Assembly (NCBI RefSeq): GCF_000166135.1 | Contig: NC_014666.1 | Span: 3,782,001 to 3,846,000, forward strand | Length of the DNA stretch: 64,000 nt | Direction: 5' to 3' | Source of the DNA: Pseudofrankia inefficax | Lineage (GTDB): Bacteria; Actinomycetota; Actinomycetes; Frankiales; Frankiaceae | Shown here: piece by piece, positions 1,013 through 39,520 of the stretch | Layout of the letters: every line of letters begins with the position of its first letter | How positions within the stretch are numbered: the stretch's first letter is position 1 | Program-made: the position numbers and the translations under genes | The notes under the pieces: generated by a model | Databases searched by the model: none | Seen by the model: the letters and a program-made list of their open reading frames with translations, nothing else | What the model was told of the DNA's origin: nothing

Positions 1013-1798
1013 TCAGCCGCCGATGACCTTGCGGTAGGCGCGCGGGCCGTCGTAGTCGTTGACGGCGTAGTGCCACGTCGCCTGGTTGTCCCAGATCACG
1101 AAGTCGCCGGGCTTCCAGCCGAAGCTGACGGTGTAGTTGGGCGACGAGGCGTGCGCGAGCAGGAAGGGCAGCAGGGCCTCGCCCTCGGCCGGGCTGACGC
1201 CCGTCAGCCTCAGCGCCGAGGCACTGAGGAAAAGGCCCTTGCGGCCGGTGTGGCGGTGCGTGCGCACGACGGGGTGCTCGACGGTCTCGGTCACCGGCGG
1301 CCGGTTGTAGGTTCCGTCGCCTGGATCGGCGTTGTAGACGGCGTTGACCGATTCCAGCAGCTGCTTGAACGGCTCGGAAAGCCCGTCATAGGCCGCCTGG
1401 AGGTCGGCCCAGAGTGTGCGCCCGCCGATTTCCGGAACCACCTGGTAGGTCAGGGACTCGATGGTGAACGGCGGGTTGCGCCAGGTACCCCCGACGTGCC
1501 AGGCCGCGGCGTTTCCCGCCTTCTCCAGGTTGAAGACGTACACAAGCCGGTTGTCCTCGTGGCGGTACAGCCACTGGGGGTGGTCGAAGGGCTCGTCGAA
1601 GATCCGGACGGCCCGCACATGCGCGTCGGGCGCGAGGTCCTGGTCACGGAAGACGAGGACCTTGTGCTTCCAGAAGGCCGCGCGCAGGGCCTCGGCGGTG
1701 GCGTCGTCGACGCCGCCGGCCAGGTCGACGCCGACGACCTCGGCGCCGAGGACGGGGCTTGCCGGGCGAATGTCGTGCGCGATGCGGGTAGCGGTCAT
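1013..1798 (-). CDS. TauD/TfdA-family Fe(II)/2-oxoglutarate enzyme with HxG metal site
   Basis: 261 residues, ATG at 1798 preceded by GAGGGG. It aligns end to end with TauD: WHVGGTW (residues 100-106) sits where TauD has WHTDVTF, and the distal His (H243, in TWHYAVNDY) and a 2-oxoglutarate Arg (R253, with R256 nearby) are kept. H101 is present, but the usual Asp two residues later is Gly103, encoded GGG, two substitutions away from GAC. A His-Gly-His site is characteristic of Fe/2OG halogenases such as WelO5, BesD and SyrB2 (Gly or Ala), where chloride takes the carboxylate position. Halogenase activity is inference; a dyad hydroxylase or a dead paralogue is possible. An SDR gene lies upstream on the same strand. 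Confidence 0.9.
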   Translation of the reverse strand: MTATRIAHDIRPASPVLGAEVVGVDLAGGVDDATAEALRAAFWKHKVLVFRDQDLAPDAHVRAVRIFDEPFDHPQWLYRHEDNRLVYVFNLEKAGNAAAWHVGGTWRNPPFTIESLTYQVVPEIGGRTLWADLQAAYDGLSEPFKQLLESVNAVYNADPGDGTYNRPPVTETVEHPVVRTHRHTGRKGLFLSASALRLTGVSPAEGEALLPFLLAHASSPNYTVSFGWKPGDFVIWDNQATWHYAVNDYDGPRAYRKVIGG

Positions 1799-2181: not shown

Positions 2182-2958
2182 CTACTGCATGGGTTCGCCG
2201 TCGTAGGTCGGCGGAAGCAGGAAGCCGTTGCTGGCGGTGAGGCCGCCGTCGCTGGCGAGCACCGCGCCGGTGACGTACGACGACTCGGGCGTGGCGAGGA
2301 AGTAGATGACCTTGGCCTGTTCGCGCGGGTCGCCCCAGCGGCCGAGTGGGATCCGGCGGGTGATCGCGGGGTAGAGGCTCGGGTGCTCGCGTACGGCCGC
2401 GGTGCGCGGGGTGGCGGTCATTCCCGGTGCGATCGCGTTGATCCGGATGTTCTGGTAGCCGTAGTCGAGGGCGGCGGAGCGGACGAGGTTGATCGCGGCG
2501 GCCTTGGTGGTGTTGTAGGCCCACGTGTACGGGTCGCCGCGCAGCCCGGCGCCGGAGGCCGTCACGACGATGGCGCCGCCGCCGGCTGCCCGCAGGGCGG
2601 GGGCCGCCGCTCGGATGCCGAGCGCGACGCCGCGCACGTTGACGGCGTGGATGCGGTCGAGGTGCTCGATCGCGCCGGGCGCCTCGATCGGGGGTGCGCC
2701 GCCGATGCCCGCGTTCAGCACGGACGCGGCCAGCCGGCCGAACGTGTCGAGGGCGAGCCGGACCGCGTCGAGGTTGGTCGCCTCGGTCGAGGCGTCGCCC
2801 ACCAGCGTGACCACGTTCGGAATGGCCTTCAGCTCGGCGAGCCGGTCGGCGTCGGGGTCGACGGCGACCACGCCGTAGCCGCGTTCCGCGAACAGCTCCA
2901 CGGTGGCCAGCCCGATGCCGGCGGCCGCGCCGGTCACGACCACCGCTGACGCCGTCAT
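2182..2958 (-). CDS. SDR-family NAD(P)-dependent oxidoreductase
   Basis: 258 residues, the normal length for a classical short-chain dehydrogenase. The Rossmann motif TGAAAGIG is at 9-16, an LNAG motif near 81-84, the catalytic Ser near 135, and YxxxK is Y148/K152 (AYNTTKA). D34 at the end of beta-2 suggests NAD rather than NADP. ATG at 2958 follows GAAGGAGC. It lies 5' of the TauD-like gene on the same strand but 383 bp away, so cotranscription is uncertain. The substrate cannot be read from the sequence. Confidence 0.92.
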   Translation of the reverse strand: MTASAVVVTGAAAGIGLATVELFAERGYGVVAVDPDADRLAELKAIPNVVTLVGDASTEATNLDAVRLALDTFGRLAASVLNAGIGGAPPIEAPGAIEHLDRIHAVNVRGVALGIRAAAPALRAAGGGAIVVTASGAGLRGDPYTWAYNTTKAAAINLVRSAALDYGYQNIRINAIAPGMTATPRTAAVREHPSLYPAITRRIPLGRWGDPREQAKVIYFLATPESSYVTGAVLASDGGLTASNGFLLPPTYDGEPMQ

Positions 2959-5552: not shown

Positions 5553-5922
5553 CCGCGGGCCTGGCGCCGCGGCGGTCGCCGGCCCGCCGCGACCCGGCGT
5601 AACGAGCCGGCCGCGCAGGTCGGCGGGACTCGCTTCGCGGCCTGGCGCCGAGGGGCCGGGCGCCGTGCGGAACCGCTCGCCCGCCGGCCGGCGCGGCCCG
5701 CGTCGGCCGCCCGCCGAGCCCGTGCACACCGTTCGTTCCTGGCCGCGGCCCGCGGCGCGGCCACCTGTTCCCGTCGACGCCTTCCTCCTGACGGCGGCTC
5801 CGCACGGTGGTTGCGCCAACCGGCCGCCTGCCCGCGCGCCGTCGCTCCGCGGTGAGGCGGATGGACGCCCCCGACCTCGCGGCGCCGTGAAGGCTCACAA
5901 GACCAAGGAGAACCAGACCGTC
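5553..5922 (+). promoter_or_regulatory. Long leader between leader peptide 1 and the ABC operon
   Basis: About 370 bp, extremely GC-rich, with no credible gene. Several complementary GC tracts just after the leader stop (around 5560-5605) could form alternative stems. This is where an attenuator or Rho-dependent stop would act; the sequence alone does not show which. Confidence 0.4.
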
Positions 5923-7557
5923 GTGAATCGATCAAGACAGCTCGCGCCTACCCGGTGGGCCGTGGCTGTGGCCGCGCTCGCCGTCGGCTCGACGTTGCTG
6001 AGCGCCTGTGGTTCCGGCGGTTCGTCCGGTGGCTCCACGCCCGCGAGCGCCGCCGCCGCGCCGAAGGCCGGTGGCACGCTGACCTTCGCGGTCGGTTCGG
6101 ACGCGGGCTGCGTCGACCCGCAGCAGGCCGGCAGCAACGACACGATCTACTCGCTGCGCCAGATCGTCGACTCGCTGACGGACCAGGACCCGAAGACCGG
6201 CAAGATCGTCCCCTGGCTCGCCCGGAGCTGGGAGATCAGCGCGGACGCGAAGACGTTCACCTTCCACCTGAAGCCAGGCGTCACCTTCAGCGACGGCACG
6301 CCGCTGACCGCGCAGGTGGTGAAGGACAACTTCGAGGCCCTCCCGAAGCTGGGCACGCTCGCGACCCTCGGTACCGGCTACCTGGGCGGCCTCGCCGGGA
6401 TCAAGGCGATCGACGCCCAGACGATCGAGATCGACTTCCAGCAGCCGAACGCGCAGTTCCTGCAGGCGACCTCGACGTTCTCGCTCGGCATCGTCTCCGA
6501 GGCGAGCGTCCAGAAGACCCCGCAGGCACGCTGCGGCGACGGGATCATCGGTTCGGGCCCGTTCGTGCTGTCGAAGTACGTCGCCGGCCAGTCGATCTCG
6601 CTGAAGAAGCGCACCGGCTACACCTGGGGCTCGTCGCTGTTCACCAAGTCCGGCGACGCCTACCTGGACGCGCTGGAGTTCAAGGTGGTCCCGGAGGCGG
6701 GCGTGCGGACCTCCAGCCTGCAGTCCGGCCAGGTCGACGCGATCGGCGCCGTGGCGCAGTCCGACGAGGCGGCCCTCAGGGGCAGCGGCGCCCAGCTGCT
6801 CGCGCGGGCGAACCCGGGGGTGGTCTTCGGGCTGAACCTGAACAACTCCCGGCCGATCTTCGCCGATCCGAACGTACGCAAGGCGCTCCTGCTGGCGGTC
6901 AACCGGCAGCAGATCGTCGACACCGTGTTCCCGACCGGGACCAGGCCGGCGACCAGCGTCCTGGCCCACACCACGCCGGACTACGCCGACCTGAGCTCCT
7001 CCGTCACCTTCAACGCCACGAAGGCCGGCGCGCTGCTCGACGCCGCCGGCTGGAAGCTCGGCGCGGGCGGCATCCGGCAGAAGGACGGCGCCCCGCTGGC
7101 CTTCACGATCACCTGGTTCGCCAACGCCGCCACCAACCAGCCGGCGCTGGAACTGGTCCAGCAGCAGCTGAAGGCCGTCGGCGTCCAGGTCGACCTGAAG
7201 CAGCTGCAGATCGCGCAGATCAGCCAGACGCTGACGGGCGGCGACTTCGACGTGCTGTGGGGCAACGTGACCCGGGCCGACCCGGACATCCTGCGCGGCC
7301 AGTTCTCCACCAAGGGCCTCAACGCGTACAAGCTCCCGGCCACCGATCTGGACACGGTGCTCGCCCAGCAGGCAGCGGAGCCGGATCCGACCAAGCGCGC
7401 CGCGCTGGTCAGGCAGGCCCAGCAGCTGGTCGTCGACAACGCCTACGTGGTTCCGGTCGTCGAGCTGGAGACCGAGCTGGGCGTCGGCAAGAACGTCCAC
7501 GACCTGAACTTCGAGGCGTCCAGCCGCATCCAGCTGCACGACACCTGGAAGAGCTGA
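5923..7557 (+). CDS. ABC transporter substrate-binding lipoprotein, family 5 (peptide/opine type)
   Basis: 544 residues. The N-terminus is a lipoprotein signal peptide with lipobox LLSAC (Cys29) and a Gly/Ser linker, so the protein is anchored outside the membrane. The body has the SBP_bac_5 signature features: GGTLTFAVGSDAGCVDPQ start, a LARSWEISADAKTFTFHLKP segment, GSGPFVLSKY, and a C-terminal VVPVVELE stretch. Start is GTG 5923 with AAGGAG at 5905-5910; the same frame stays open far upstream, but that is non-coding leader. It heads an operon with two permeases and a fused ATPase. The leader peptide upstream suggests a sulfur-containing ligand such as a peptide or glutathione-like compound; that is inference. 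Confidence 0.92.
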   Translation: MNRSRQLAPTRWAVAVAALAVGSTLLSACGSGGSSGGSTPASAAAAPKAGGTLTFAVGSDAGCVDPQQAGSNDTIYSLRQIVDSLTDQDPKTGKIVPWLARSWEISADAKTFTFHLKPGVTFSDGTPLTAQVVKDNFEALPKLGTLATLGTGYLGGLAGIKAIDAQTIEIDFQQPNAQFLQATSTFSLGIVSEASVQKTPQARCGDGIIGSGPFVLSKYVAGQSISLKKRTGYTWGSSLFTKSGDAYLDALEFKVVPEAGVRTSSLQSGQVDAIGAVAQSDEAALRGSGAQLLARANPGVVFGLNLNNSRPIFADPNVRKALLLAVNRQQIVDTVFPTGTRPATSVLAHTTPDYADLSSSVTFNATKAGALLDAAGWKLGAGGIRQKDGAPLAFTITWFANAATNQPALELVQQQLKAVGVQVDLKQLQIAQISQTLTGGDFDVLWGNVTRADPDILRGQFSTKGLNAYKLPATDLDTVLAQQAAEPDPTKRAALVRQAQQLVVDNAYVVPVVELETELGVGKNVHDLNFEASSRIQLHDTWKS

Positions 7558-7638: not shown

Positions 7639-8679
7639 ATGTGGCGCTATGTGCTTCGCCGTCTCGCGCAGGCGGTCGGCGTGCTGTGGGCGGCCTACAC
7701 GGTGACGTTCCTGGTGCTCGACTACCTGCCGGGTGACCCGGTCACGGCCATGGCCGGGGCGCAGGTGGACTCGGGCGGGGTCGACCCGGCGCTGGTCGCG
7801 AAGCTGCGCCACCAGTACGGCTTCGACCAGCCGGTGCTGGTGCAGTACTTCCATTACCTGTTCAGGGCGCTGCGCGGCGACCTCGGCGTCTCGGTGTCGA
7901 CCGGCCGCCCGGTCACCTCGGTGATGGGCGACGCCCTGCCGCCGACGCTGGCGCTGACCGGGCTGGGGCTGGCCATCGGGATCGTCACCGGCGCCTCGCT
8001 CGCGCTGGTCGCGACCTACACCAACCGGCGGTGGCTGCGCCAGGGCCTGCTCTCGCTGCCGTCGATCGGGGTGTCGGTGCCGGGATTCTGGGTCGGGCTG
8101 ATGCTCGTCCAGCTGTTCTCCTTCCGGATCCGGCTGTTCCCCGCGTTCGGCAACGACGGGCTGCGCGGCCTCGTGCTGCCGGCCGTCACCCTGGCGGTGC
8201 TGCCCGCCGCGATGATCGCGCAGATCCTCGCCAAGAGCCTGCTCACGGCGCTCGCCGAGCCCTACGCCCAGACCGCGCAGGCCAAGGGAGCGGGGCGGGC
8301 CCGCGTGCACCTGCGGCACGCGCTGCGCAACGCGCTGCTGCCCGCGCTGACGATCACGGGCGTGCTGACCGGCCAGCTGATGGCGAACGCCGTCGTCGTC
8401 GAGACGGTCTTCTCCCGCAACGGGCTCGGCCGGGCCACCGCCGCGGCCGTCAACGCGCAGGACATCCCGGTGGTGCAGGGCGTCGTCGTCTTCGGGGCGT
8501 TCGTCTTCGTGACGGTCAACCTGCTCATCGACCTCGTCTACCCGCTGCTCGACCCGAGGATCACCGTCGGCTCCGCCCGGCGCGGCCTTTCCCGGCGCGA
8601 TGCCCCGACCGACCCACCCGCGGGCGGCGGCGAGCTGACGGCCTGCGCCGCCCGGCCGGCAGCAGGGAGCGCCGCATGA
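7639..8679 (+). CDS. ABC transporter permease, DppB/OppB type
   Basis: 346 residues with six predicted membrane segments. It begins MWRYVLRRLAQAVGVLWAAY and has the DYLPGDPV motif of DppB-type permeases. The EAA-type loop reads EPYAQTAQAKGAGRARVHLR, the contact point for the ATPase. ATG 7639 follows a GGAGGGGAGA ribosome site. The last ~35 residues form a charged tail. Its stop overlaps the next start (ATGA). It forms the membrane channel with the 8676 gene. Confidence 0.93.
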   Translation: MWRYVLRRLAQAVGVLWAAYTVTFLVLDYLPGDPVTAMAGAQVDSGGVDPALVAKLRHQYGFDQPVLVQYFHYLFRALRGDLGVSVSTGRPVTSVMGDALPPTLALTGLGLAIGIVTGASLALVATYTNRRWLRQGLLSLPSIGVSVPGFWVGLMLVQLFSFRIRLFPAFGNDGLRGLVLPAVTLAVLPAAMIAQILAKSLLTALAEPYAQTAQAKGAGRARVHLRHALRNALLPALTITGVLTGQLMANAVVVETVFSRNGLGRATAAAVNAQDIPVVQGVVVFGAFVFVTVNLLIDLVYPLLDPRITVGSARRGLSRRDAPTDPPAGGGELTACAARPAAGSAA

Positions 8680-9614
8680 CCCACCTGGACGCCGCCGGGC
8701 CGGTCCTCGCCGCGACGGCGCAGCCGGCCGACGCGGTCGTGGACGACGACTGGCGGGAGCCGCCGGTGGGACGACGCCACCGGGTGGACCTGGCTCGCGT
8801 GGGACGGTTCTTCCTGGGCCGGCCCGGCCTGGTGCTCGCGGTCCTGCTCGTCGTGCTGGTGGTGCTGGCCGCCTTCTGGCCGGGGCTGTTCACCTCCCGC
8901 GACCCGCTGCTGGGTGTGCCGACCGACCGGTTCAGCGGGCCGAGCGCCCAGCACTGGTTCGGCACGGACGAGCTCGGCCGTGACCTGTTCGCCCGCGTCG
9001 TGCACGGCGCGGCGCTGTCCCTGAAGGCGACGATCATCGCGGTCGCGGTGGCGTTCGTCGTCGGTGGGCTGCTCGGTCTCGTCGCCGGCTTCGTCGGCCG
9101 CTGGGTCGAGGACGTCATCATGCGGGTCGTCGACGTGCTGCTGTCGATCCCCGCGCTGTTCATGTCGCTCGCGCTGGTCACCGCGCTCGGCTACGGCACG
9201 GTCAAGGTCGCCCTGGCGGTCGGGATCGCGAGCGTCGCCAGCTTCGCCCGGGTCATGCGCGCGGAGGTGCTCAAGGTGCGCCAGGCGACCTACGTCGAGG
9301 CGTCCCGGTCGATCGGCGCCCGGTGGTACACCGTGCTCGGCCGCCACGTGCTGCCCAACGCGCTGGGGCCGGTCCTCGTGCTCGCGACCCTCGACTTCGG
9401 CACCTCGGTCCTCGCCGTGTCGTCACTGAGCTTCCTGGGCTACGGCGCCTCCCCGCCGGCGCCGGAATGGGGCACGTTGATCTCCAGCGGACGCAACTAC
9501 CTGGCCAACGCCTGGTGGCTGACGACCCTGCCCGGCCTGACCGTCGCCGCGACCGTGCTGGCGACCAACCGGATCGCCCGGGCCCTCGACGGCGAATGGG
9601 CGACGCAGCGATGA
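8676..9614 (+). CDS. ABC transporter permease, DppC/OppC type
   Basis: 312 residues. An N-terminal cytosolic stretch leads into TM1 (GLVLAVLLVVLVVLAAFWPG), then the OppC_N-like HWFGTDELGRDLFARVVHGA motif that is diagnostic for DppC-type permeases. The coupling loop contains EASRSIGARWYTVLGRHVLP, and the C-terminal part reads FLGYGASPPAPEWG. Start and stop overlap both neighbours by 4 bp, so translation is coupled across permease, permease and ATPase. Confidence 0.93.
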   Translation: MTHLDAAGPVLAATAQPADAVVDDDWREPPVGRRHRVDLARVGRFFLGRPGLVLAVLLVVLVVLAAFWPGLFTSRDPLLGVPTDRFSGPSAQHWFGTDELGRDLFARVVHGAALSLKATIIAVAVAFVVGGLLGLVAGFVGRWVEDVIMRVVDVLLSIPALFMSLALVTALGYGTVKVALAVGIASVASFARVMRAEVLKVRQATYVEASRSIGARWYTVLGRHVLPNALGPVLVLATLDFGTSVLAVSSLSFLGYGASPPAPEWGTLISSGRNYLANAWWLTTLPGLTVAATVLATNRIARALDGEWATQR

Positions 9615-11356
9615 CCGCCATCCCGACCCAGCCGGGCCCGGCAGAACCGGCCGCGGCCAAGGAGACCGCGAGCCCGACGCGCGACGCGGGCCTGCTCGCG
9701 ATCCGCGGGCTGTCGGTCTCCTACCGCGCGCGGACCGGGCCGATCCCGGCCGTGCGCGGGGTCGACCTCGACATCCACCCCGGGGAGATCGTCGCCCTGG
9801 TCGGCGAGTCCGGCTCCGGGAAGAGCACCACGGCGCACGCCGTCATCGGGCTGCTGCCGGCCGGCGGACGCGTCGACGCGGGCAGCGTCCAGTTCGGCGG
9901 CCAGGACCTGGTCAGGCTCGCCCCGCGCGAGCTGCGGGTCATCCGGGGCGCCGGCATCGGCCTCGTCCCGCAGGACCCGACCGTGTCGCTCAACCCGGTG
10001 GCGCGGGTCGGCGACCAGGTCGCCGAGGTGCTGCGGATTCACCACCTGGCCGGCCGCCGCGAGGCCGGCCAGGCCGCGGTGGGCCTGCTGGAACGGGCGG
10101 GACTGCCGAACCCGGCGACCGCGGCCCGCCAGTACCCGCACGAGCTGTCCGGCGGGATGCGGCAGCGGGCCCTGATCGCCATCGCGATCGCCGCGAGACC
10201 GAGCCTGATCATCGCCGACGAGCCGACCAGCGCGCTGGACGTCACCGTCCAGCGGCTCATCCTCGACCACCTCGACCGGCTGACGTCCGAGCTCGGCACC
10301 GCCGTGCTGCTGGTGACCCACGACCTCGGCGTCGCCGCCGACCGGGCGGCCCGGATCGCGGTCATGTCGCGCGGCCGGATCGTCGAGACCGGCCCGACCC
10401 GCCAGATCCTCGACGACCCCCGCGACCCCTACACACGCCGTCTGCTGCGGGCGGCCCCGAGCCTCGCGGCCGCCCGCGGCCGGTCGCCGGCCGCGAGCGC
10501 CGGCCCGGTGGTGGCGTCGCTGGAGAAGGCCGCCCCGGTGGCCCCCGAGGCGAGTGACGTCCGGCCGCTGGTGGTGGTGGACCACCTGGTCAAGAGCTTC
10601 CCGCTGCCCAGGACCGCCGGCGGCGCACGCGGGCTGCGGGCCGTGGACGACGTCAGCCTCACCATCAGCCGGGGCGAGACGCTGGCGCTGGTCGGCGAGT
10701 CGGGCTCGGGAAAGTCCACGACGGCCAGACTCGTGCTCCGCCTGGTCGACCCGACCGCGGGACGGATCACCTTCGACGGCGAGGACGTCACCCGCGCCGG
10801 CGGCGGCCGGCTGCGGGCGCTGCGCCGGCGGGCCCAGCTGATCTACCAGAACCCGTACGCCTCCCTCGACCCACGGTTCACGGTCGGCGAGGTGGTCACG
10901 GAGCCGCTGCGGGTCTTCCACGTCGGCGACCGCGCCGCGCGGCTCGCCCGCGCCCGGGAGCTGCTCGACCGGGTCGCGCTGCCGGCGTCCATGCTGGACC
11001 GCCGCCCGGCGGAGCTGTCCGGCGGGCAGCGCCAGCGGGTCGCGATCGCCCGCGCGCTGGCGCTGTCGCCCGAGCTGGTCGTCTGCGACGAGCCGATCTC
11101 CGCCCTGGACGTCTCCGTGCAGGCCCAGGTCCTTCAGCTGCTGGCCGAGCTGCAGGCCGACACCGGCGTCGCCTACCTGTTCATCTCCCACGACCTGGCC
11201 GTCGTCCGCCAGATCGCCCACCGGGTCGCGGTGATGCGCTCGGGCCGGGTCGTCGAGACGGGCCCCACCGACCGGCTGTTCGCCGACCCCGAGCACGAGT
11301 ACACCCGCGCCCTGCTCGACGCCATCCCGGGCGCCGCGGCCGGGGGTGGCGACTGA
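9611..11356 (+). CDS. Fused double ATP-binding protein of peptide-type ABC transporter (DppD-DppF)
   Basis: 581 residues with two complete nucleotide-binding domains. Domain 1 (~28-290) has Walker A GESGSGKST, signature LSGGMRQR and Walker B LIIADEP. Domain 2 (~320-575) has Walker A GESGSGKST, signature LSGGQRQR and Walker B LVVCDEP. Both have the H-switch (LLVTHD, LFISHD). Each is followed by the DPxxPYTRxLL-type tail of Opp/Dpp ATPases. This single polypeptide replaces the usual DppD and DppF pair. It overlaps the upstream permease by 4 bp and ends the operon. Confidence 0.94.
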   Translation: MTAIPTQPGPAEPAAAKETASPTRDAGLLAIRGLSVSYRARTGPIPAVRGVDLDIHPGEIVALVGESGSGKSTTAHAVIGLLPAGGRVDAGSVQFGGQDLVRLAPRELRVIRGAGIGLVPQDPTVSLNPVARVGDQVAEVLRIHHLAGRREAGQAAVGLLERAGLPNPATAARQYPHELSGGMRQRALIAIAIAARPSLIIADEPTSALDVTVQRLILDHLDRLTSELGTAVLLVTHDLGVAADRAARIAVMSRGRIVETGPTRQILDDPRDPYTRRLLRAAPSLAAARGRSPAASAGPVVASLEKAAPVAPEASDVRPLVVVDHLVKSFPLPRTAGGARGLRAVDDVSLTISRGETLALVGESGSGKSTTARLVLRLVDPTAGRITFDGEDVTRAGGGRLRALRRRAQLIYQNPYASLDPRFTVGEVVTEPLRVFHVGDRAARLARARELLDRVALPASMLDRRPAELSGGQRQRVAIARALALSPELVVCDEPISALDVSVQAQVLQLLAELQADTGVAYLFISHDLAVVRQIAHRVAVMRSGRVVETGPTDRLFADPEHEYTRALLDAIPGAAAGGGD

Positions 11357-11972: not shown

Positions 11973-13025
11973 GTGACTGAGGGAGTGGTCGCGTCGTTGG
12001 CCATCTCGGCTGACGCACCGGACGGCGCCGCCCAACCGGCCGGCGGCCAGCCCGCGGTCGTTCCCACCGGCGTCGGCCCGGTGAGCGTCCAGGTTCCGGA
12101 GGCGCTGGAGCGGCCGGCGGCCCAGCGGGTGATCCCGCTCCGCCGGCCAGGGCGCTGGATCGCCACCGTCGTGGTGCTCGTGGTTCTCGCGCAGGCCATC
12201 CACGGCCTCGTGACCAACCCCTTCTACCAGTGGGACCGGTTCGAGTACTGGTTCGCCCGGCCGGTGATCCTGCGCGGGCTGCTGATCACGCTGCAGGTGA
12301 CGGCCTACAGCGCGGTGTTCGGCCTGCTCGGCGGCATCGTGCTCGCGCTCGGCCGGCTGTCGAGCAACCCGGTGCTGAAGTCGGTGAGCTGGCTCTACAT
12401 CTGGCTGTTCCGGTCGGTGCCGCTGATCGTCGTGCTGATCTTCCTCTACAACTTCGGCGCGCTGTACCGGACGGTCAGCCTGGGCGTGCCGTTCGGCCCG
12501 AGGTTCCTCAGCTTCCACGAGGCGGACCTGCTCGGCGAGATGGCGATCGCCGTGATCGGGGTCAGCCTGAACGAGGCCGCCTACGCCGCGGAGGTGGTGC
12601 GGGCCGGGCTGCTCTCGGTCGACCAGGGCCAGCACGAGGCGGCGGCCGCGCTCGGGCTGCCACGGTTCTACCAGTTCCGCCGGATCGTGCTGCCACAGGC
12701 GCTGCGCGCGATCATCCCGTCCTACGTCAACCAGCTGATCGGGCTGATCAAGGGGACGTCGCTGGTCTTCTACGTCTCGCTGCTCGACATCTTCGGGAAG
12801 GTGCAGACGATGGGCAGCACCTATCCCGGCGACGTCATCCCGCTGCTGCTGGTCGGGACGGCGTGGTACGTGATCCTCACCAGCATCGTGTCCGTGGTCC
12901 AGTACTACGTGGAGCGGTACTACTCGCGCGGCGCGCTGCGGACGCTCCCGCCGACCCCGACGCAGTGGGCGCGGGCCGGGCTCGCCCGCCTGCGGCTCTC
13001 GGTCCGGGCCCGGGTGGCGCGATGA
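11973..13025 (+). CDS. ABC transporter permease, polar amino acid (HisM/GlnP) type
   Basis: 350 residues. A ~60-residue hydrophilic N-terminal extension precedes the HisMQ-type permease domain: ILRGLLITLQVTAYSAVFGL, the FRSVPLIVVLIFLYNFG segment, and the coupling loop QGQHEAAAALGLPRFYQFRR with VLPQALRAIIPSYVNQ. Start is GTG 11973; no strong ribosome site was found, and the GTG at 11985 is an alternative. Its stop overlaps the ATPase start (ATGA). The preceding leader peptide suggests a sulfur amino acid or derivative as ligand. Confidence 0.92.
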   Translation: MTEGVVASLAISADAPDGAAQPAGGQPAVVPTGVGPVSVQVPEALERPAAQRVIPLRRPGRWIATVVVLVVLAQAIHGLVTNPFYQWDRFEYWFARPVILRGLLITLQVTAYSAVFGLLGGIVLALGRLSSNPVLKSVSWLYIWLFRSVPLIVVLIFLYNFGALYRTVSLGVPFGPRFLSFHEADLLGEMAIAVIGVSLNEAAYAAEVVRAGLLSVDQGQHEAAAALGLPRFYQFRRIVLPQALRAIIPSYVNQLIGLIKGTSLVFYVSLLDIFGKVQTMGSTYPGDVIPLLLVGTAWYVILTSIVSVVQYYVERYYSRGALRTLPPTPTQWARAGLARLRLSVRARVAR

Positions 13026-14017: not shown

Positions 14018-15049
14018 ATGCGCACTCTTCGACCCAGACGTGTCCGGGCGGCGGTCACTGGCACCGCGGCCGTCCTCGCGCTGACGATCGGCCTGACCGC
14101 CTGCGGGGGCAGCGACGGCAAGGGCTCGGGAGCGTCCGCGAGCGCGTCCACCGGCGCGACCGTCGTCACCGTCGGCGCCGTGTCCAACGGTGCCGCCAAG
14201 CAGACCGACCTCACCGTGCCGGTCGTGGACTCGATCCGGGCCGAGCTGCCGGCCTCCGTGCGCGACAGCGGCCAGCTGACCATCGGCCTCGGCCTGCTGC
14301 CGAGCGGGGCGCCGCCGCTCGGCTACACCGGCAGCGACCAGAAGACGCTCACCGGCTCGGAGCCCGACCTCGGCCGGCTCATCGCGGCCGTCTTCGGGGT
14401 GAAGCCGGTGTTCCAGAACTCGACCTTCGAGAACCTGTTCGTCGGCATCGACAGCGGCAAGAACAACGTCGGCATCTCGAACATCACCGACACCGAGGAG
14501 CGCAAGCGCAAGTACGACTTCGCGTCGTACCGGGAGGACAACCTGGCGTTCGAGGCGCCCAGGAGCAGCAGCTGGACCTTCACCGGCGACTACGAGGTGC
14601 TGGCCGGGAAGACCATCGGCGTGGGCGCCGGCACCAACCAGGAGAAGATCCTCCTGGAGTGGAAGACCAAGCTGGAGGCCGAGGGCAAGACCCTCGACGT
14701 CAAGTACTTCCAGGACCTCACCACGGTCTACGCGTCGCTGGCCTCCGGCAAGATCGACGCCTACTTCGGCCCGAACCCGTTCGAGGCCTACCACGTCACC
14801 CAGTCCGCGAGCTCGCCGAACCCGACCCGCCTGGCCGGCCAGTGGTCGGGCGCGGGGGAGACGCTCCAGGGCCTGATCGCGGCGACGACGAAGAAGGACT
14901 CCGGCCTGGTCAAGCCGCTGGCCGACGCGATCAACTACCTGATCCAGAACGGTCAGTACGGGAAGTGGCTCGCCTCCTGGAACCTCTCGGAGGAGGCCGT
15001 GAAGTCCGCCCAGGTGAACCCGCCGGGACTCCCGCTGACCAACTCCTGA
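14018..15049 (+). CDS. ABC transporter substrate-binding lipoprotein, family 3
   Basis: 343 residues. The signal peptide has lipobox GLTAC (Cys29) and a Gly/Ser/Ala linker. The SBP_bac_3 fold follows: PDLGRLIAAVFGVKPVFQNS, ENLFVGIDSGKNNVGISNIT, the TDTEERKRKYDFASY loop, and GKTIGVGAGTNQEKILLEW with a C-terminal WNLSEEAV. ATG follows AAGGGGAAATC. It lies 207 bp after the ATPase; a partial or separate promoter is possible. It delivers ligand to the 11973/13022 transporter; the ligand is unidentified. Confidence 0.92.
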   Translation: MRTLRPRRVRAAVTGTAAVLALTIGLTACGGSDGKGSGASASASTGATVVTVGAVSNGAAKQTDLTVPVVDSIRAELPASVRDSGQLTIGLGLLPSGAPPLGYTGSDQKTLTGSEPDLGRLIAAVFGVKPVFQNSTFENLFVGIDSGKNNVGISNITDTEERKRKYDFASYREDNLAFEAPRSSSWTFTGDYEVLAGKTIGVGAGTNQEKILLEWKTKLEAEGKTLDVKYFQDLTTVYASLASGKIDAYFGPNPFEAYHVTQSASSPNPTRLAGQWSGAGETLQGLIAATTKKDSGLVKPLADAINYLIQNGQYGKWLASWNLSEEAVKSAQVNPPGLPLTNS

Positions 15050-16239: not shown

Positions 16240-16414
16240 GTGACGGTGCAGCGCGCGGACGTCGTCCAGGTCGGCGGCGGGGTCGTCGGCTCGGCGGCGG
16301 CCTGGCGGCTGGCGCGGCGGGCTCGACGTCGTTCTGCTCGAACGGTTCGGGCCCGGGCACGTCTACGGCGCCTCGCACGGCGTCCCGCGGATCTTCCGGG
16401 TGTCGTACCCCGCT
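16240..16414 (+). pseudogene. Decayed FAD-dependent oxidoreductase N-terminus (MSOX-like)
   Basis: The start reads VTVQRADVVQVGGGVVGSAA, an FAD-binding Rossmann GxGxxG motif, then AWRLARR. The frame is then lost near 16319; in the next frame LDVVLLERFGPGHVYGASHG and VPRIFRVSY continue the monomeric sarcosine oxidase-type sequence (ERF...SSHG..RI). After that it runs directly into the luciferase-like gene. About 60 residues of a ~380-residue family remain, interrupted by a frameshift and a 3' truncation. It is non-functional in this form. Confidence 0.72.
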
Positions 16415-16471
16415 TCTCCCAGCGCTGAGGCCCGCCATCCCGGCCCAGACCCGAAGACCGAAGGGCTCCCC

Positions 16472-17698
16472 ATGTCCGACGTTCCGCTCTCCGTCCTCGA
16501 CCTGATCCCGGTCAGCGCCGGCGCGACGCACGCCGAGGCGCTGCGCAACGCGGTCGACCTGGCCCGTCAGACCGAGGCCTTCGGCTACCGGCGGTACTGG
16601 TTCGCCGAGCACCACCTCGCCACCGGCGTCATCGGGGCGTCGACGGCGGTCGCGATCGCCCTCGTGGGCGGCGCGACGAAGACGATCCGGCTCGGTTCCG
16701 CCGGCGTCCAGATCGGGCATCGCACGCCGCTGTCGGTCGTCGAGGAGATCGGGCTGCTGAACGCGGCCTTCCCCGGCCGGCTCGACCTGGGCATCGGCCG
16801 GTCGTTCAGCCGGCCCGCCCCGACGGGAGACGGCGGCGCGGAGCTGCCGCGGCAGGCGGGCGAGCCGGAGCCGGCGCTCGCCACGGCCGGGGTGGCGGCC
16901 AGCCAGGCGTCCGCGGCCGCCAGCTACGTGGCCTCGGCCGGCGGCGGCGCCCATCTCGCCGACGAGTACACCGCGGGCGGGCTGCTACTGCCGAAGCGGT
17001 TCGACTTCACCAAGCTGCTCGCGTCCGACCTGGTCGGCGTCCTGGTCACGCTGCTGCAGCAGCCCGGCGCGTACGCCCCCGGCTACGCCGAGCAGATCGA
17101 CGACGTGCTCGCCCTGCTCGCGGGGACCTACCACACGCCGACCGGCCTGCCGGGGCACGCCTCGCCCGGCGAGGGCGCGGACGTCGAGGTCTGGATCCTC
17201 GGCGCGTCCGGCGGGGTCAGCGCGACGGTCGCCGGCGAGCGCGGGCTGCCGTTCGCGGCCTCCTACCACCACAGCCCGAGCACCGTGCTCGACGCGGTCC
17301 AGGCCTACCGGGCCGCGTTCCGCCCTTCCGCCTCGCTGGACCGGCCGCTGGTCGCGGTGTCCGCCGACGTCGTCGTCGCCGAGGACGACGCGACCGCGAC
17401 CCGGCTGGCCGCCGGCTACGGGCAGTGGGTGCTCAGCATCCGCGCGGGCACGGGCGCGATCCCGTTCCCGGCCCCCGACGACGCGCTGGCGCGCACCTGG
17501 ACCGACGAGGAGCGGGAGCTGGTCCGGGACAGGGTGAGCACCCAGCTCGTCGGCTCCCCGCGCACCGTCGCCGACCGGCTGGAGCAGCTGCGCGACGAGA
17601 CCGGCGCCGACGAGCTCGCCATCACCACCATCACCCACCGGCACGCCGACCGGGTCCGGTCCTACCAGCTTCTCGCCGACGAGTGGCGCCGCCGCTGA
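16472..17698 (+). CDS. Luciferase-like flavin-dependent monooxygenase 1 (MsnO8-type)
   Basis: 408 residues. PLSVLDLIPVSAGATHAEAL, the YRRYWFAEHH motif and SAGVQIGHRTPLSVVEEIGL with a RLDLGIGRSF loop are hallmarks of the LLM class flavin-dependent TIM barrel, which uses FMNH2 and O2. The C-terminal QLVGSPRTVADRLEQLRDET is also family-typical. Start taken as ATG 16472 with AAGGG upstream; the frame is open further 5', but that part is the oxidoreductase remnant. First of three such genes in a row beside transporters with sulfur-type leaders, so oxidation of sulfonates or thioethers is plausible. Confidence 0.9.
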   Translation: MSDVPLSVLDLIPVSAGATHAEALRNAVDLARQTEAFGYRRYWFAEHHLATGVIGASTAVAIALVGGATKTIRLGSAGVQIGHRTPLSVVEEIGLLNAAFPGRLDLGIGRSFSRPAPTGDGGAELPRQAGEPEPALATAGVAASQASAAASYVASAGGGAHLADEYTAGGLLLPKRFDFTKLLASDLVGVLVTLLQQPGAYAPGYAEQIDDVLALLAGTYHTPTGLPGHASPGEGADVEVWILGASGGVSATVAGERGLPFAASYHHSPSTVLDAVQAYRAAFRPSASLDRPLVAVSADVVVAEDDATATRLAAGYGQWVLSIRAGTGAIPFPAPDDALARTWTDEERELVRDRVSTQLVGSPRTVADRLEQLRDETGADELAITTITHRHADRVRSYQLLADEWRRR

Positions 17699-17788
17699 GG
17701 CACGCCCGGCCCGTACCGGACCCGCCGCCCACCCAGCCGTCCGGGTCCGCGACCAGCACTCGATGTCGATCAGAAGGAGATGACCCCG

Positions 17789-19000
17789 ATGGCGGATTCG
17801 GCGCACTCGGACCTGTTGCACCTCGCCGTCGCGCTCGACGGCACGGGATGGCACCCCGCCGCCTGGCGCGAGCCTGACGCCCGGCCGGCGGAGCTGCTCA
17901 CGGCCGGCTACTGGCTGGACCAGGTTCTCGAGGCCGAACGCGGCCTGCTGGACTTCGTCACGATCGAGGACTCCCTCGGCCTGCAGTCGTCGCGCTTCGA
18001 CGGCCCGGACGAGCGGACCGACCAGGTGCGCGGCCGGCTCGACGCGGTCCTCATCGCCTCCCGGGTCGCCCCGCTGACCAGCCACATCGGCCTGGTGCCG
18101 ACGGGGACCGTCACCCACACCGAGCCGTTCCACCTCTCCAAGGCGATCGCCACCCTCGACTACGTCAGCGCGGGCCGGGCCGGCTGGCGGGCCCAGGCGT
18201 CGCGGCCGGGCGAGAACACCCACTTCGGCCGGCGCCCGACCTTCTCGTTCGGGGTCGCCGACCTCGACAAGCCCGAGGTGCGGGCGGCGGTGGCCGACTC
18301 CTTCGACGAGGCGGCCGACTTCGTGGAGGTCGTGCGCCGGCTGTGGGACAGCTGGGAGGACGACGCGGAGATCCGCGACGTCGCGACCGGCCGGTTCATC
18401 GACCGGGAGAAGCTGCACTACATCGACTTCGAGGGCCGCTGGTTCAAGGTCCGCGGCCCGTCGATCGTGCCGCGCCCGCCGCAGGGCCAGCCGGTCGTCT
18501 CGGTGCTCGCGCACGCGACGATCCCGTACCGGCTCGGGGCCCGGGCCGCCGACATCGTCTACGTGACCCCGCGGGACGAGGCCGGGGCCGCGGCGATCGT
18601 CGCCGAGGTCCGCGCCGAGCAGGAGGCGGCCGGCCGGGCGGCGCAGCCGGTCCACGTGTTCGGCGACCTGGTCGTGTTCCTCGACGACACCGCCGGGGCG
18701 GCGGCCGCGCGCAGGGACCGCCTGGACGAGGCGGCGGGGGAGCGGCTCGTCAGCGACGCGTTGGTCTTCACCGGCACGGCGGCCGAGCTGGCCGACCTGC
18801 TGCTGGCCTGGCAGCGGGCCGGGCTGTCCGGCTACCGGCTGCGGCCCGGCGCCGTCCCGCGCGACCTGGAGGCGATCACCCGCGCTCTGGTCCCCGAGCT
18901 CCAGCGTCGCGGCGCCTTCCGTACCGCCTACGAGGCGGACACCCTGCGCGGGCTGCTGGGCCTTCCCCGCCCGGCCAGCCGCTACGCGGCCGCCCACTGA
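17789..19000 (+). CDS. Luciferase-like flavin-dependent monooxygenase 2 (NtaA/SnaA/DszA-like)
   Basis: 403 residues. HLAVALDGTGWHPAAWRE, DFVTIEDSLGLQ, LIASRVAPLTSHIGLVPTGT and the SAGRAGWRAQAS motif place it in the NtaA/SnaA/DszA branch of the bacterial luciferase family. It should use reduced FMN supplied by a separate reductase; none is seen nearby. Start chosen at ATG 17789 because AGAAGGAGA lies 8 nt upstream; the ATG at 17780 overlaps that site. The family oxidises nitrilotriacetate, dibenzothiophene sulfone or similar compounds; the actual substrate is unknown. Confidence 0.9.
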   Translation: MADSAHSDLLHLAVALDGTGWHPAAWREPDARPAELLTAGYWLDQVLEAERGLLDFVTIEDSLGLQSSRFDGPDERTDQVRGRLDAVLIASRVAPLTSHIGLVPTGTVTHTEPFHLSKAIATLDYVSAGRAGWRAQASRPGENTHFGRRPTFSFGVADLDKPEVRAAVADSFDEAADFVEVVRRLWDSWEDDAEIRDVATGRFIDREKLHYIDFEGRWFKVRGPSIVPRPPQGQPVVSVLAHATIPYRLGARAADIVYVTPRDEAGAAAIVAEVRAEQEAAGRAAQPVHVFGDLVVFLDDTAGAAAARRDRLDEAAGERLVSDALVFTGTAAELADLLLAWQRAGLSGYRLRPGAVPRDLEAITRALVPELQRRGAFRTAYEADTLRGLLGLPRPASRYAAAH

Positions 19001-19046: not shown

Positions 19047-20414
19047 ATGAGCGGCGCGCGCAAGCAGATCATCCTTGGCGCCTATGTCGGGGGCGTCAAC
19101 CACCAGACCGTGTGGTCGGACCCGGCCGCCGGCAGCCAGATCGACTTCTCCACCTTCCAGCACGTGGCGCGGACGGCCGAACGCGGGAAGTTCGACTTCT
19201 TCTTCCTGGCCGAGGGCCTCGTCCTGCGGGAACGGCTCGGGAAGATCTTCGACCAGGACATCATCGGCCGCCCCGACACGCTGCCGGTGCTCGCCGCGCT
19301 GGCCGCGGTCACCGAGCATCTCGGGCTCGTCGGCACCCTCAACGCGACCTTCAACGAGCCCTACGACCTGGCCCGCCAGATCGCCTCCCTCGACCACCTC
19401 TCCGGCGGCCGGGCCGGCTGGAACGTCGTCACGTCGTTCGACGCCTTCACCGGCCAGAACTTCAGGCGCGGCGGGTTCCTCGACCGCGACGACCGGTACA
19501 TCCGGGCCGAGGAGTTCGTCACCGTCGCCCGCCGGCTGTGGGACACCTGGTCGCCCGAGGCCGTGCTCGCCGACGCTGCCCAGGGCCGGTTCCTGCGGGA
19601 CGCCGACGCGGGCACCTTCCGCTTCCACGGCCGGCAGTTCGACATCTCGGGCCGGTTCAACGTGCCCCGCGGCCCGCAGGGCCGGCCGGTGATCCTGCAG
19701 GCCGGGGTGTCCCCGCAGGGCCGGGACTTCGCCGCGGCCACCGCCGACGCGATCTTCTCGCCGTTCCACCGGCTGGCCGAGGCGCAGGAGTTCTACCAGG
19801 ACATCCAGCGCCGGGTCGCCCGGGCCGGACGCCCGGAGGGGTCGGTGCGCATCCTGCCCGGCGGCTCGTTCGTCCTCGGCGACTCCGCCGCGGACGCGGC
19901 CGAGAAGGCCCGCGAGATCGCCCGCACCCAGATCACCGGCCAGACCGCGCAGATCCTCCTCGAGGCCGTGTGGAACCGTGACCTTTCCGGTTACGACCCG
20001 GATGGCGCGCTGCCCGACGTCGACCCGGACCCCGACGGGCCGCTGGTCATCCAGGGCCGGGCCCGGCTGCATCAGGACGCGCTCGCGACCGTCCGCCAGT
20101 GGCGCGAGATCGCGGCGGCGAACGGCTTCTCGCTGCGCGAACTGGCCATCCACCTGTTCAGCCGCACCTAGTTCGTCGGCACGCCGACCCAGGTCGCCGA
20201 CCAGCTGGACGGGTTCGTCCAGCAGGGCGGGTCGGACGGCTTCATCCTCGGCTCACACCTGACCCCGACGGGCCTGGACGAGTTCGTCGACAAGGTCGTC
20301 CCGCTGCTGCAGGAACGTGGCTCGCTGCGCGCCGACTACACCGGCACGACCCTGCGCGACAACCTGCGCATCCCGGCTCCGGAGGCGCCCCGGACCCCGG
20401 CCGCCGTCGCCTAG
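19047..20414 (+). pseudogene. Luciferase-like monooxygenase 3 (NtaA/DmoA-like) with in-frame TAG
   Basis: The frame opens with ATG 19047 and reads 374 residues of an NtaA/DmoA-type monooxygenase (FDFFFLAEGL, SGGRAGWNVVTSFDAF, GRPVILQAGVSPQGRDFAA). It meets TAG at 20169-20171 right after LAIHLFSRT. Reading through, the same frame continues as FVGTPTQVADQLDGFVQQGG and DGFILGSHLTPTGLDEFVD, the normal family C-terminus, to a second TAG at 20412-20414. One nonsense codon thus removes ~80 residues with no frameshift. It may be a recent pseudogene, a sequencing error or, less likely, readthrough. Confidence 0.85.
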
Positions 20415-38425: not shown

Positions 38426-38470
38426 TGATCGCCGCTCTGGCCCTGGAGTCGTCGGCCAGAGCGGCGATCA
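38426..38470. repeat. Short palindrome related to the 75-bp repeats; possible bidirectional terminator
   Basis: TGATCGCCGCTCTGGCC (38426-38442) and GGCCAGAGCGGCGATCA (38454-38470) are perfect 17-bp arms around an 11-nt loop. The ends match the 75-bp repeats but the centre is much shorter. It lies between convergent genes and its right end contains the stop codon of the TIR-TPR gene. No U-tract follows. Confidence 0.8.
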
Positions 38471-39520
38471 CGCACGCCGCGTCGCGCCGGCCAGGCTGGC
38501 GATGGCGTGCGTGTCGGCGTGGTCGAGGCCGAGCACCCGACGGCACCGCTCCAGCGTGTCCCGCGCCAGCACCCGCGCCGCGGCGTGCTCCCGGATCGTG
38601 GTGAGGAAGGCCGCGAGCTCGCGGGCGACCGCGAGCGTGTTGACGTGGTCGGGGCCCAGAACGCGTCGGCACCGTTCCAGGGTGTCCTCGGCGAGGGCCC
38701 GCGCCGCCTGGTGATCCCGGTCTCCGTAGCGAGCCAGTGAAAGTTCCTGGGCAGTGCTGAGGGTGTCGACGTGGTCAGGACCGAGCAGACGACGGCGTCT
38801 TACCAGGGTGTCCTCGATCAGCGGGCGCCCCGCCTGGTAGTTCCCGTTCCTCCTGAGTGCGACGGCGAGGTCGTGCGCGGCGGCGAGGGTCTCGACGTGG
38901 TCGGGACCGAGCACACCGCGGCGGTGCGCGAGCACCTCCACGAGCTTCTGCTCGTCGCTCGGCTCAATCGACCGATCGGAACCTTCGGGCGGGTGCACGG
39001 GGAAAATCGGCTCGCTGCTCGACTGGTGGCGCCGTCTCACCGGGAAGTCGGGGGCTGTGGCCGGCTTGGCCCGGCCGGCAAGGGCGTGCCGGACGTGATC
39101 CAGAAGGTGCTTGCTCGCCGCGCTCGCGTCGAGGTCGAACAGATCGATGGAGACAATGGCGCCCAGCGGCCCGGGCTGGGGACACGGCTCGATACGGACG
39201 GGAAGCAGCTTCCGGGCGAAGCCGCTGGGGTCCGCGCGATGGGCGGCCTGCCATTCGCTCTGGCCGTAGACCGAGGACAGGTAGGCGGGGGACAGTACGG
39301 CCACCGTCCGCTGGGCCTGTTCCATTCCCTCGATCATGCGGATCTGCCAGTTCGACCCGGCGACGAAGTCCCAGACCTGGATCAGGACCCGGTAACCCGC
39401 GTCTTCCAGCTGCCAGGCGATCCACTCGGCCCACGGCTGATCGACCCCGGTGTACGAGACGAAGAAATGCCACCCGTCGGGTGTTCCTCGCGTGCCGTGC
39501 CCTTCCGCCACGTCGATCAC
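38468..39520 (-). CDS. TIR-domain protein with tetratricopeptide repeats
   Basis: 350 residues from GTG 39520. A TIR domain at ~17-150: HFFVSYTGVDQPWAEWIAWQ, SPAYLSSVYGQSEW with the conserved Glu that is catalytic in TIR NADases. The C-terminal half has about four TPR units of ~42 residues (RRRLLGPDHVDTLSTAQELS; RCRRVLGPDHVNTLAVAREL). TIR plus repeat sensors are common in bacterial conflict systems, where sensing triggers NAD+ loss; a regulatory role is also possible. Its TIR domain closely resembles that of the 52020 gene. Convergent with the orphan SBP. Confidence 0.88.
   Translation of the reverse strand: MIDVAEGHGTRGTPDGWHFFVSYTGVDQPWAEWIAWQLEDAGYRVLIQVWDFVAGSNWQIRMIEGMEQAQRTVAVLSPAYLSSVYGQSEWQAAHRADPSGFARKLLPVRIEPCPQPGPLGAIVSIDLFDLDASAASKHLLDHVRHALAGRAKPATAPDFPVRRRHQSSSEPIFPVHPPEGSDRSIEPSDEQKLVEVLAHRRGVLGPDHVETLAAAHDLAVALRRNGNYQAGRPLIEDTLVRRRRLLGPDHVDTLSTAQELSLARYGDRDHQAARALAEDTLERCRRVLGPDHVNTLAVARELAAFLTTIREHAAARVLARDTLERCRRVLGLDHADTHAIASLAGATRRA

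Follow-up and report, generated by a model that had tools for sequence, protein, structure and literature searches.

Gly replaces the iron-binding Asp of the metal motif in a real and conserved variant of the TauD family, here called the HxG clade, which we did not find in print in a search of the open-access literature: the matches listed contain no report of a TauD-family clade with HxG or with unusual ligands. The member studied here lies in Pseudofrankia inefficax, on the minus strand at 1013..1798 of the window, the whole 64,000-nt stretch of DNA that was analysed; the gene runs from 1798 to 1013, with the stop codon at 1013-1015. It encodes a TauD-family Fe/2OG oxygenase of 261 aa without Cys or internal Met. 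The protein scores 171.5 bits against the Pfam TauD family PF02668 (cut-off 27), and none of the NCBIfam equivalogs matches it above its own cut-off, the best being taurine dioxygenase with 169.3 bits against 313. The host genome (8.8 Mb) contains 16 TauD-family matches. We give about even weight to the reading that the protein is a working Fe(II)/2OG oxygenase of the TauD/AtsK branch, which scavenges organosulphur compounds with a rebuilt metal site.

The metal motif of the window protein reads W100-H101-V102-G103-G104-T105-W106 (WHVGGTW). The proximal metal His101 (codon CAC, 1496..1498, minus strand) and the distal metal His243 (1070..1072, minus strand) are invariant in an alignment of 68 rows (A2). 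Gly103 (codon GGG, 1490..1492, minus strand) occupies the position of TauD Asp101, and this column holds Gly in 26/26 clade rows and Asp in 42/42 others, the 2-His-1-Asp triad (HxD...H) of the TauD/TfdA family being replaced by HxG in all clade members fetched. The Thr and Arg that bind 2OG in the same family are both invariant in a second alignment of 14 rows (A1). Thr128 (1415..1417, minus strand), also invariant in A2, aligns with TauD Thr126, a 2OG-binding residue, and Arg253 (1040..1042, minus strand) aligns with a conserved Arg of AtsK equivalent to R266 of TauD, which likewise has a role in 2OG binding. The initial annotation had described an HxG site with G103 in place of the iron-binding Asp and with H101, H243 and the 2OG Arg kept, and the open reading frame, the codon and the alignment bear this out. 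All 68 rows of A2 share one spacing from W-H to GG, which makes the placement of G103 under Asp secure. An alternative alignment, pairing VGGTW-RNP with the FGGNW-HTD seen in some HxD relatives, would take away the His as well as the Asp; it was rejected because of this constant spacing, and the relatives in question realign as WHTD. A read error, which the initial annotation had already argued against, or a pseudogene is ruled out, since WH[VI]GG is present in all orthologues whose loci were fetched and the gene is under purifying selection.

A scan of genome contigs placed orthologues at 12 or more named loci (L017-L028), with 63-92% identity. Their hosts, among the matches listed, are Frankia, Pseudofrankia, Protofrankia, Mycobacterium gordonae, Actinomadura, Streptomyces and Pseudonocardia, the nearest named orthologue in that set being the one from Frankia sp. 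QA3 (92%). In profile searches, orthologues score at least 455 bits and are clearly set apart from the next class, which reaches at most 221 bits; within the order, 16 of the 35 genomes have one, as do 9 of 392 genomes of one further genus (that of genome G114, inferred to be Streptomyces), and 4 of the 8 genomes of the genus to which the window belongs carry the gene. Of 396 genomes sampled evenly across the phylum, only the own genome and G114 pass E 1e-70. A more distant member from S. abikoensis (L029, 41% identity) also reads WH[VI]GG. A tree built by a quick method without bootstrap, after masking of columns 103, 104 and 114, places all 26 HxG rows on one side of a branch (SH-aLRT 96), with L029 on a long branch. 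The HxG gene is conserved under purifying selection in one clade, the Nei-Gojobori dN/dS being 0.10-0.25 for nine of the ten pairs compared and 0.40 for the tenth, and the conservation of HxG among orthologues, which the initial annotation had regarded as a sign of function, extends to every orthologue found. A catalytically dead or regulatory TauD homologue appears very improbable: the loss of Asp inactivates TauD in passages of PMC2767507, gene fragments occur in two genomes and a degenerate paralogue (L015) is present in the same genome, but both His, the Thr and the Arg are invariant in the clade and the gene experiences purifying selection.

The substitution at position 103 is coupled with a second one at position 114. 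Glu114 (codon GAG, 1457..1459, minus strand), the candidate replacement carboxylate, is found in 26/26 HxG rows of A2, against Ser (29), Ala (7) or Thr (6) in 42/42 HxD rows. The same division is seen among 157 distinct TauD-like strings with at least 170 aligned columns, taken from fetched loci and in part perhaps derived from near-identical strains: the HxG strings, including the window protein, all have Glu (31/31), and the HxD strings have Ser (65), Ala (38) or Thr (22) in 125/125 cases. The one string with neither Asp nor the combination of Gly and Glu is the degenerate own-genome paralogue L015 (C1:4287783-4288559), in which WHSV replaces the metal motif and no distal His is aligned; judging by these residues, it is probably a non-metal or decayed TauD homologue. 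The G103/E114 pair belongs to a set of 32 clade-specific columns in A2, and both changes fall on one branch of the tree. As the clade has one origin, the coupling amounts to one evolutionary event, and at the level of sequence it is suggestive rather than a statistical proof.

In an AlphaFold2 model (mean pLDDT 92.4, with an average of 96 for residues 111-120), residue 114 lies at the beginning of the strand that follows the metal motif (residues 113-120). E114 aligns with TauD Ala112, and L116, invariant in A2, aligns with TauD Leu114, which has a role in 2OG binding. Since L116 is two residues past E114, the two lie on the same face of the strand, and a side chain facing the crowded metal/2OG site would account for the small residue that all HxD proteins have at 114. 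Asn205 of FIH and Asn198 of KDM4 offer an analogy. These features suggest that Glu114 is a relocated carboxylate, bound to Fe directly or through a water in the manner of AspH Asp721, and it may be the alternative acidic ligand that was named in the initial annotation as speaking against its reading. That a TauD clade moved its iron carboxylate to a Glu of the next strand, arriving at a first-sphere set (His101, Glu114, His243) new among 2OG oxygenases by way of a form tolerant of both, is a possibility that we advance tentatively. If Glu114 does bind iron, the large 2OG oxygenase superfamily would have a more plastic 2-His-1-carboxylate site than thought, and the HxG clade would be a natural experiment in metal-site change; the clade may thereby show a new way to hold iron in a very large enzyme family.

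The arrangement of AspH provides a precedent for a site without the Asp. Passages of PMC13168262 describe an iron held by two His, with a water (W1) in the carboxylate site that is hydrogen-bonded by Asp721, a D721A variant that is much less active, and an enzyme that does not halogenate its substrates. This precedent, together with the room that Gly-Gly would leave for a water, speaks for a pure His-dyad oxygenase, in which water fills the vacant site, Glu114 is structural or substrate-binding only, and the sulphur-scavenging role is the same as under the rebuilt site. We consider it unlikely, though deserving of some weight: it leaves unexplained why an acid occurs on that strand only in HxG proteins, AspH itself relies on its second-sphere Asp (PMC13168262), and TauD D101A is reported as inactive in PMC2767507. 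AspH resembles the HxG protein in its two-His site without a first-sphere Asp and in the nearby acid that holds the iron-bound water, but its acid lies four residues before the distal His, whereas the candidate acid E114 is on the strand after the motif. The 3-His-1-Glu cupins, such as quercetin dioxygenase, draw a metal-binding Glu from the cupin motif, on a strand whose position might, by analogy, match that of Glu114; unlike them, the HxG protein has Gly two residues after the first His and keeps the 2OG site. Cupin-fold iron sites can carry a Glu ligand of the cupin motif, and TauD is included in the same motif alignment, in the passages concerned of PMC4019311.

Proteins of the HxG clade are almost devoid of sulphur-containing residues. 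The low Cys and Met content looked for in organosulphur-scavenging oxygenases takes an extreme form here, as 24 of the 26 HxG proteins lack Cys altogether and contain no Met apart from a first residue, the exceptions being L146 with one Met and L029 with two. Overall, Cys and Met account for 0.04% of the HxG rows against 2.7% in the 42 HxD rows and 1.2% in 12 hand-picked actinobacterial HxD rows, in counts for which some rows are alignment spans missing the protein ends; 2 of the 42 HxD rows also have neither residue. In Rhodococcus, Cys and Met counts have been read as sulphur sparing, and the TauD, SfnG, AtsA and Dsz proteins are among the low ones described in passages of PMC8557817. The absence of these residues from HxG proteins suggests a sulphur-starvation signature. 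Both residues are likewise missing from the own-genome HxD paralogues L001, L008 and L009; the trait thus points to probable sulphur scavengers in general and not to HxG specifically.

The surroundings of the gene in the window display the same bias. A short-chain dehydrogenase is encoded at 2182..2958 (minus strand; PF13561, 175 bits), and the region from 5.9 to 20.2 kb holds, on the plus strand, a dipeptide/nickel-type importer, a second importer and three flavin monooxygenases (one MsnO8 and two NtaA-type). The first importer comprises a family 5 solute-binding protein (5905..7557, approximate start; PF00496), a dipeptide/nickel-type ABC permease (7639..8679; best score 271 bits, under the cut-off of 350), a second ABC permease (8688..9614; PF00528) and a double ABC ATPase (9611..11356; PF00005); the second importer is represented by an ABC permease (11973..13025; PF00528) and a family 3 solute-binding protein (14018..15049; PF00497). 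These are joined by an MsnO8-family flavin monooxygenase (16400..17698; TIGR03558, 290.7 bits, above the cut-off) and by two monooxygenases of the NtaA/DmoA type, the first at 17780..19000 (TIGR03860, 265.8 bits, under the cut-off of 279.7) and the second at 19047..20171 (TIGR03860, 329.9 bits). In the family search, the second was read with one TAG stop inside it (about 19128-20231, plus strand), and it may be shortened in this strain. A distance of 15 kb separates the HxG gene of the window from the nearest of these flavin monooxygenases. Three flavin monooxygenases within 20 kb compare with 0.36 at random places of the own genome (P ~0.03); one of the 15 other own-genome TauD genes also has three, so the own-genome case is weak by itself.

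Most of the proteins predicted in the first 20 kb contain little Cys and Met, and several contain none. The MsnO8 protein and the second NtaA-type monooxygenase have no Cys or Met, the first NtaA-type monooxygenase has one Met and the family 3 binding protein one Cys. Higher values in this part come from an ArsR-like gene (3.6% Cys and Met), one permease (1.7%) and an MFS gene (1.2%). Beyond 20.5 kb, the pooled value is 2.4% for 26 genes of 150 aa or more, which were predicted by a simple ORF caller and some of which may be spurious. Compared with the remainder at 20.5-64 kb, the part of the window from 1 to 20.2 kb seems to be marked by composition alone as a sulphur-starvation island. In the remainder, the minus strand at 38468-39520 encodes a protein whose start, judged by eye, may resemble that of a TIR domain.

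Other loci of the clade have comparable neighbours. The link to ssu/dsz-type flavin monooxygenase genes sought as a mark of organosulphur scavengers is present, 15 of the 27 HxG loci having a flavin monooxygenase no more than about 8 kb away vs 1 of 35 HxD controls, in a comparison that favours the HxG side, as the neighbour queries were taken from HxG loci. SsuC-like permeases (5 loci vs 1), GST-like proteins (8 vs 0) and DppB-like permeases (5 vs 0) follow the same direction, and 12 actinobacterial controls have none of the four classes. The 27 loci leave out the duplicates L018, L168 and L180, the short L020 and L025, the distant L029 and the window itself; the controls are those 35 of the 67 relatives L030-L096 that have full flanks. 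The remaining 12 of the 27 HxG loci have no flavin monooxygenase within about 8 kb, and several of the 27, some of these 12 among them, have short flanks. In L161 and L162, from the G114 genus, the HxG gene is accompanied by an SsuD-like monooxygenase (243 bits against a cut-off of 518), an ABC permease and a binding protein of the NMT1 type, the one in L161 being the BLAST cluster partner of the protein profile-tested in L162, and on the strength of these three genes we term the setting ssu-like. Inspection by eye of 11 loci, including L029, revealed no assembly line. Cys and Met are scarce in the NtaA-type (0.34%) and MsnO8 (0.25%) neighbours across loci, not strikingly so in CE1758-like (1.1%) and SsuD-like (1.2%) proteins, mildly reduced in SsuC/SsuA-like proteins (1.1-1.5% range), and abundant in the MFS neighbour (3.2%). 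A GST-like protein poor in Cys and Met (0.48% over 8) is encoded near the HxG gene in several Frankiaceae (L017 at 9012-9962 and seven further loci), and is a possible partner of the HxG enzyme. In L164, a locus without flavin monooxygenase neighbours, about 7 kb separate the HxG gene from one for a sulphatase (PF00884, 16943-19147). Passages of PMC11852219 and PMC7661421 describe a response to organosulphur sources in Gordonia by the genes for TauD and for flavin monooxygenases, the NtaA type included.

From the HxG motif, the kept His, Thr and Arg, the coupled Glu, the purifying selection, the depletion of Cys and Met and the neighbourhood, all features at the sequence level, we infer the contact between Glu and Fe, expression under starvation, the class of the substrate, and cleavage of a C-S or S-ester bond. 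An organosulphur-scavenging oxygenase with a rebuilt site would release sulphur from a sulphonate, a sulphate ester or a similar anion during sulphur starvation. His101 and His243 would bind Fe(II), and Thr128 and Arg253 the 2OG, with Glu114 of the next strand replacing the carboxylate lost at 103, either as a direct ligand or as the holder of an iron-bound water. The 2OG-driven formation of the ferryl would be kept; the ferryl would remove a hydrogen next to the sulphur group, and after hydroxyl rebound sulphite or sulphate would leave. Among proteins of solved structure, those nearest in sequence are taurine dioxygenases of the TauD family, PlaO1 and alkylsulphatases. With TauD, AtsK and Rv3406 (taurine dioxygenase and type II alkylsulphatases, PF02668) the HxG protein shares the fold, the two His, the 2OG Thr and Arg and the anion-pocket His (H73); it differs from them in having Gly for the HxD Asp, Glu for the small residue at 114, Lys257 for Arg, and Trp242 in place of the Gln that precedes the distal His in most relatives. 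His73 aligns with TauD His70, which binds taurine together with Arg270 according to passages of PMC9304159. Lys257 sits at the position of an AtsK Arg that would correspond to TauD Arg270, so taurine itself is probably not the substrate.

The same open Gly-Gly site and organosulphur context could accommodate a substrate on the metal, with an anionic sulphur or oxygen group bound to Fe, Glu114 acting as a base, and chemistry of a thiol-dioxygenase-like or oxidase kind. We know of no precedent in the TauD family for a substrate coordinating Fe in the place of the Asp, and the residues that bind 2OG are kept, which makes this distinctly unlikely even though the loss of a cupin Glu in gentisate dioxygenase is described, in a passage of PMC4019311, as making room for a bidentate substrate.

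The initial annotation had left the choice between a TauD-clade halogenase and a dyad oxygenase. The site and its conservation stand, and the dyad option has its precedent in AspH; the halogenase option is disfavoured by features that the annotation had not mentioned, namely the neighbourhood of the gene, the coupling with E114 and a sequence free of Cys and internal Met. The likeness to the Fe/2OG halogenases SyrB2, CytC3, WelO5 and BesD consists in the Gly or Ala that stands for the iron-binding Asp, a place in which chloride would be held before its transfer to the substrate radical. The HxG/A motif serves as a sequence marker by which the halogenase class is called (passages of PMC12871659), the His and 2OG residues are kept, and the neighbourhoods of the distant L029 and of the loci free of flavin monooxygenases leave room for such an enzyme. 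On the other hand, halogenation has to contend with an invariant Glu on the strand after the motif that is confined to HxG proteins, with a Cys/Met composition of sulphur starvation, and with the catabolic-type neighbours and sulphur-scavenging setting of many loci. No halogenase is named among the 38 PDB sequences matching the A1 profile up to E 10, nor among 50 of the 1703 fold matches (TauD, AtsK, PlaO1, aryloxyalkanoate dioxygenases and putative relatives). Removal of the Asp in TauD D101A and in P4H D414A and D414G abolished hydroxylation, with no gain of halogenation in the passages of PMC2767507 that describe these variants. A halogenase is accordingly a slim prospect. A conserved HxG clade that is probably made up of sulphur-scavenging oxygenases would make the HxG/A marker unsafe on its own.

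Searches for a mobile origin gave no plasmid match at E 1e-30, and in the viral search 63 stretches match a pattern, none of which encodes a relative. In the G114 genus, the DNA pattern WH[FLIMV]GGxW has matches in 30 of 382 genomes, at 34 places of which 30 became loci; with resemblance to the query judged in the motif region, these yielded no other HxG lineage in the genus besides the nine known orthologues and two fragments. The fragments, L183 (86 aligned residues) and L193 (43), come from two genomes and resemble the HxG gene, and they indicate that some strains are probably losing the gene. A separate TauD of the HxD type is present at L183 as well.
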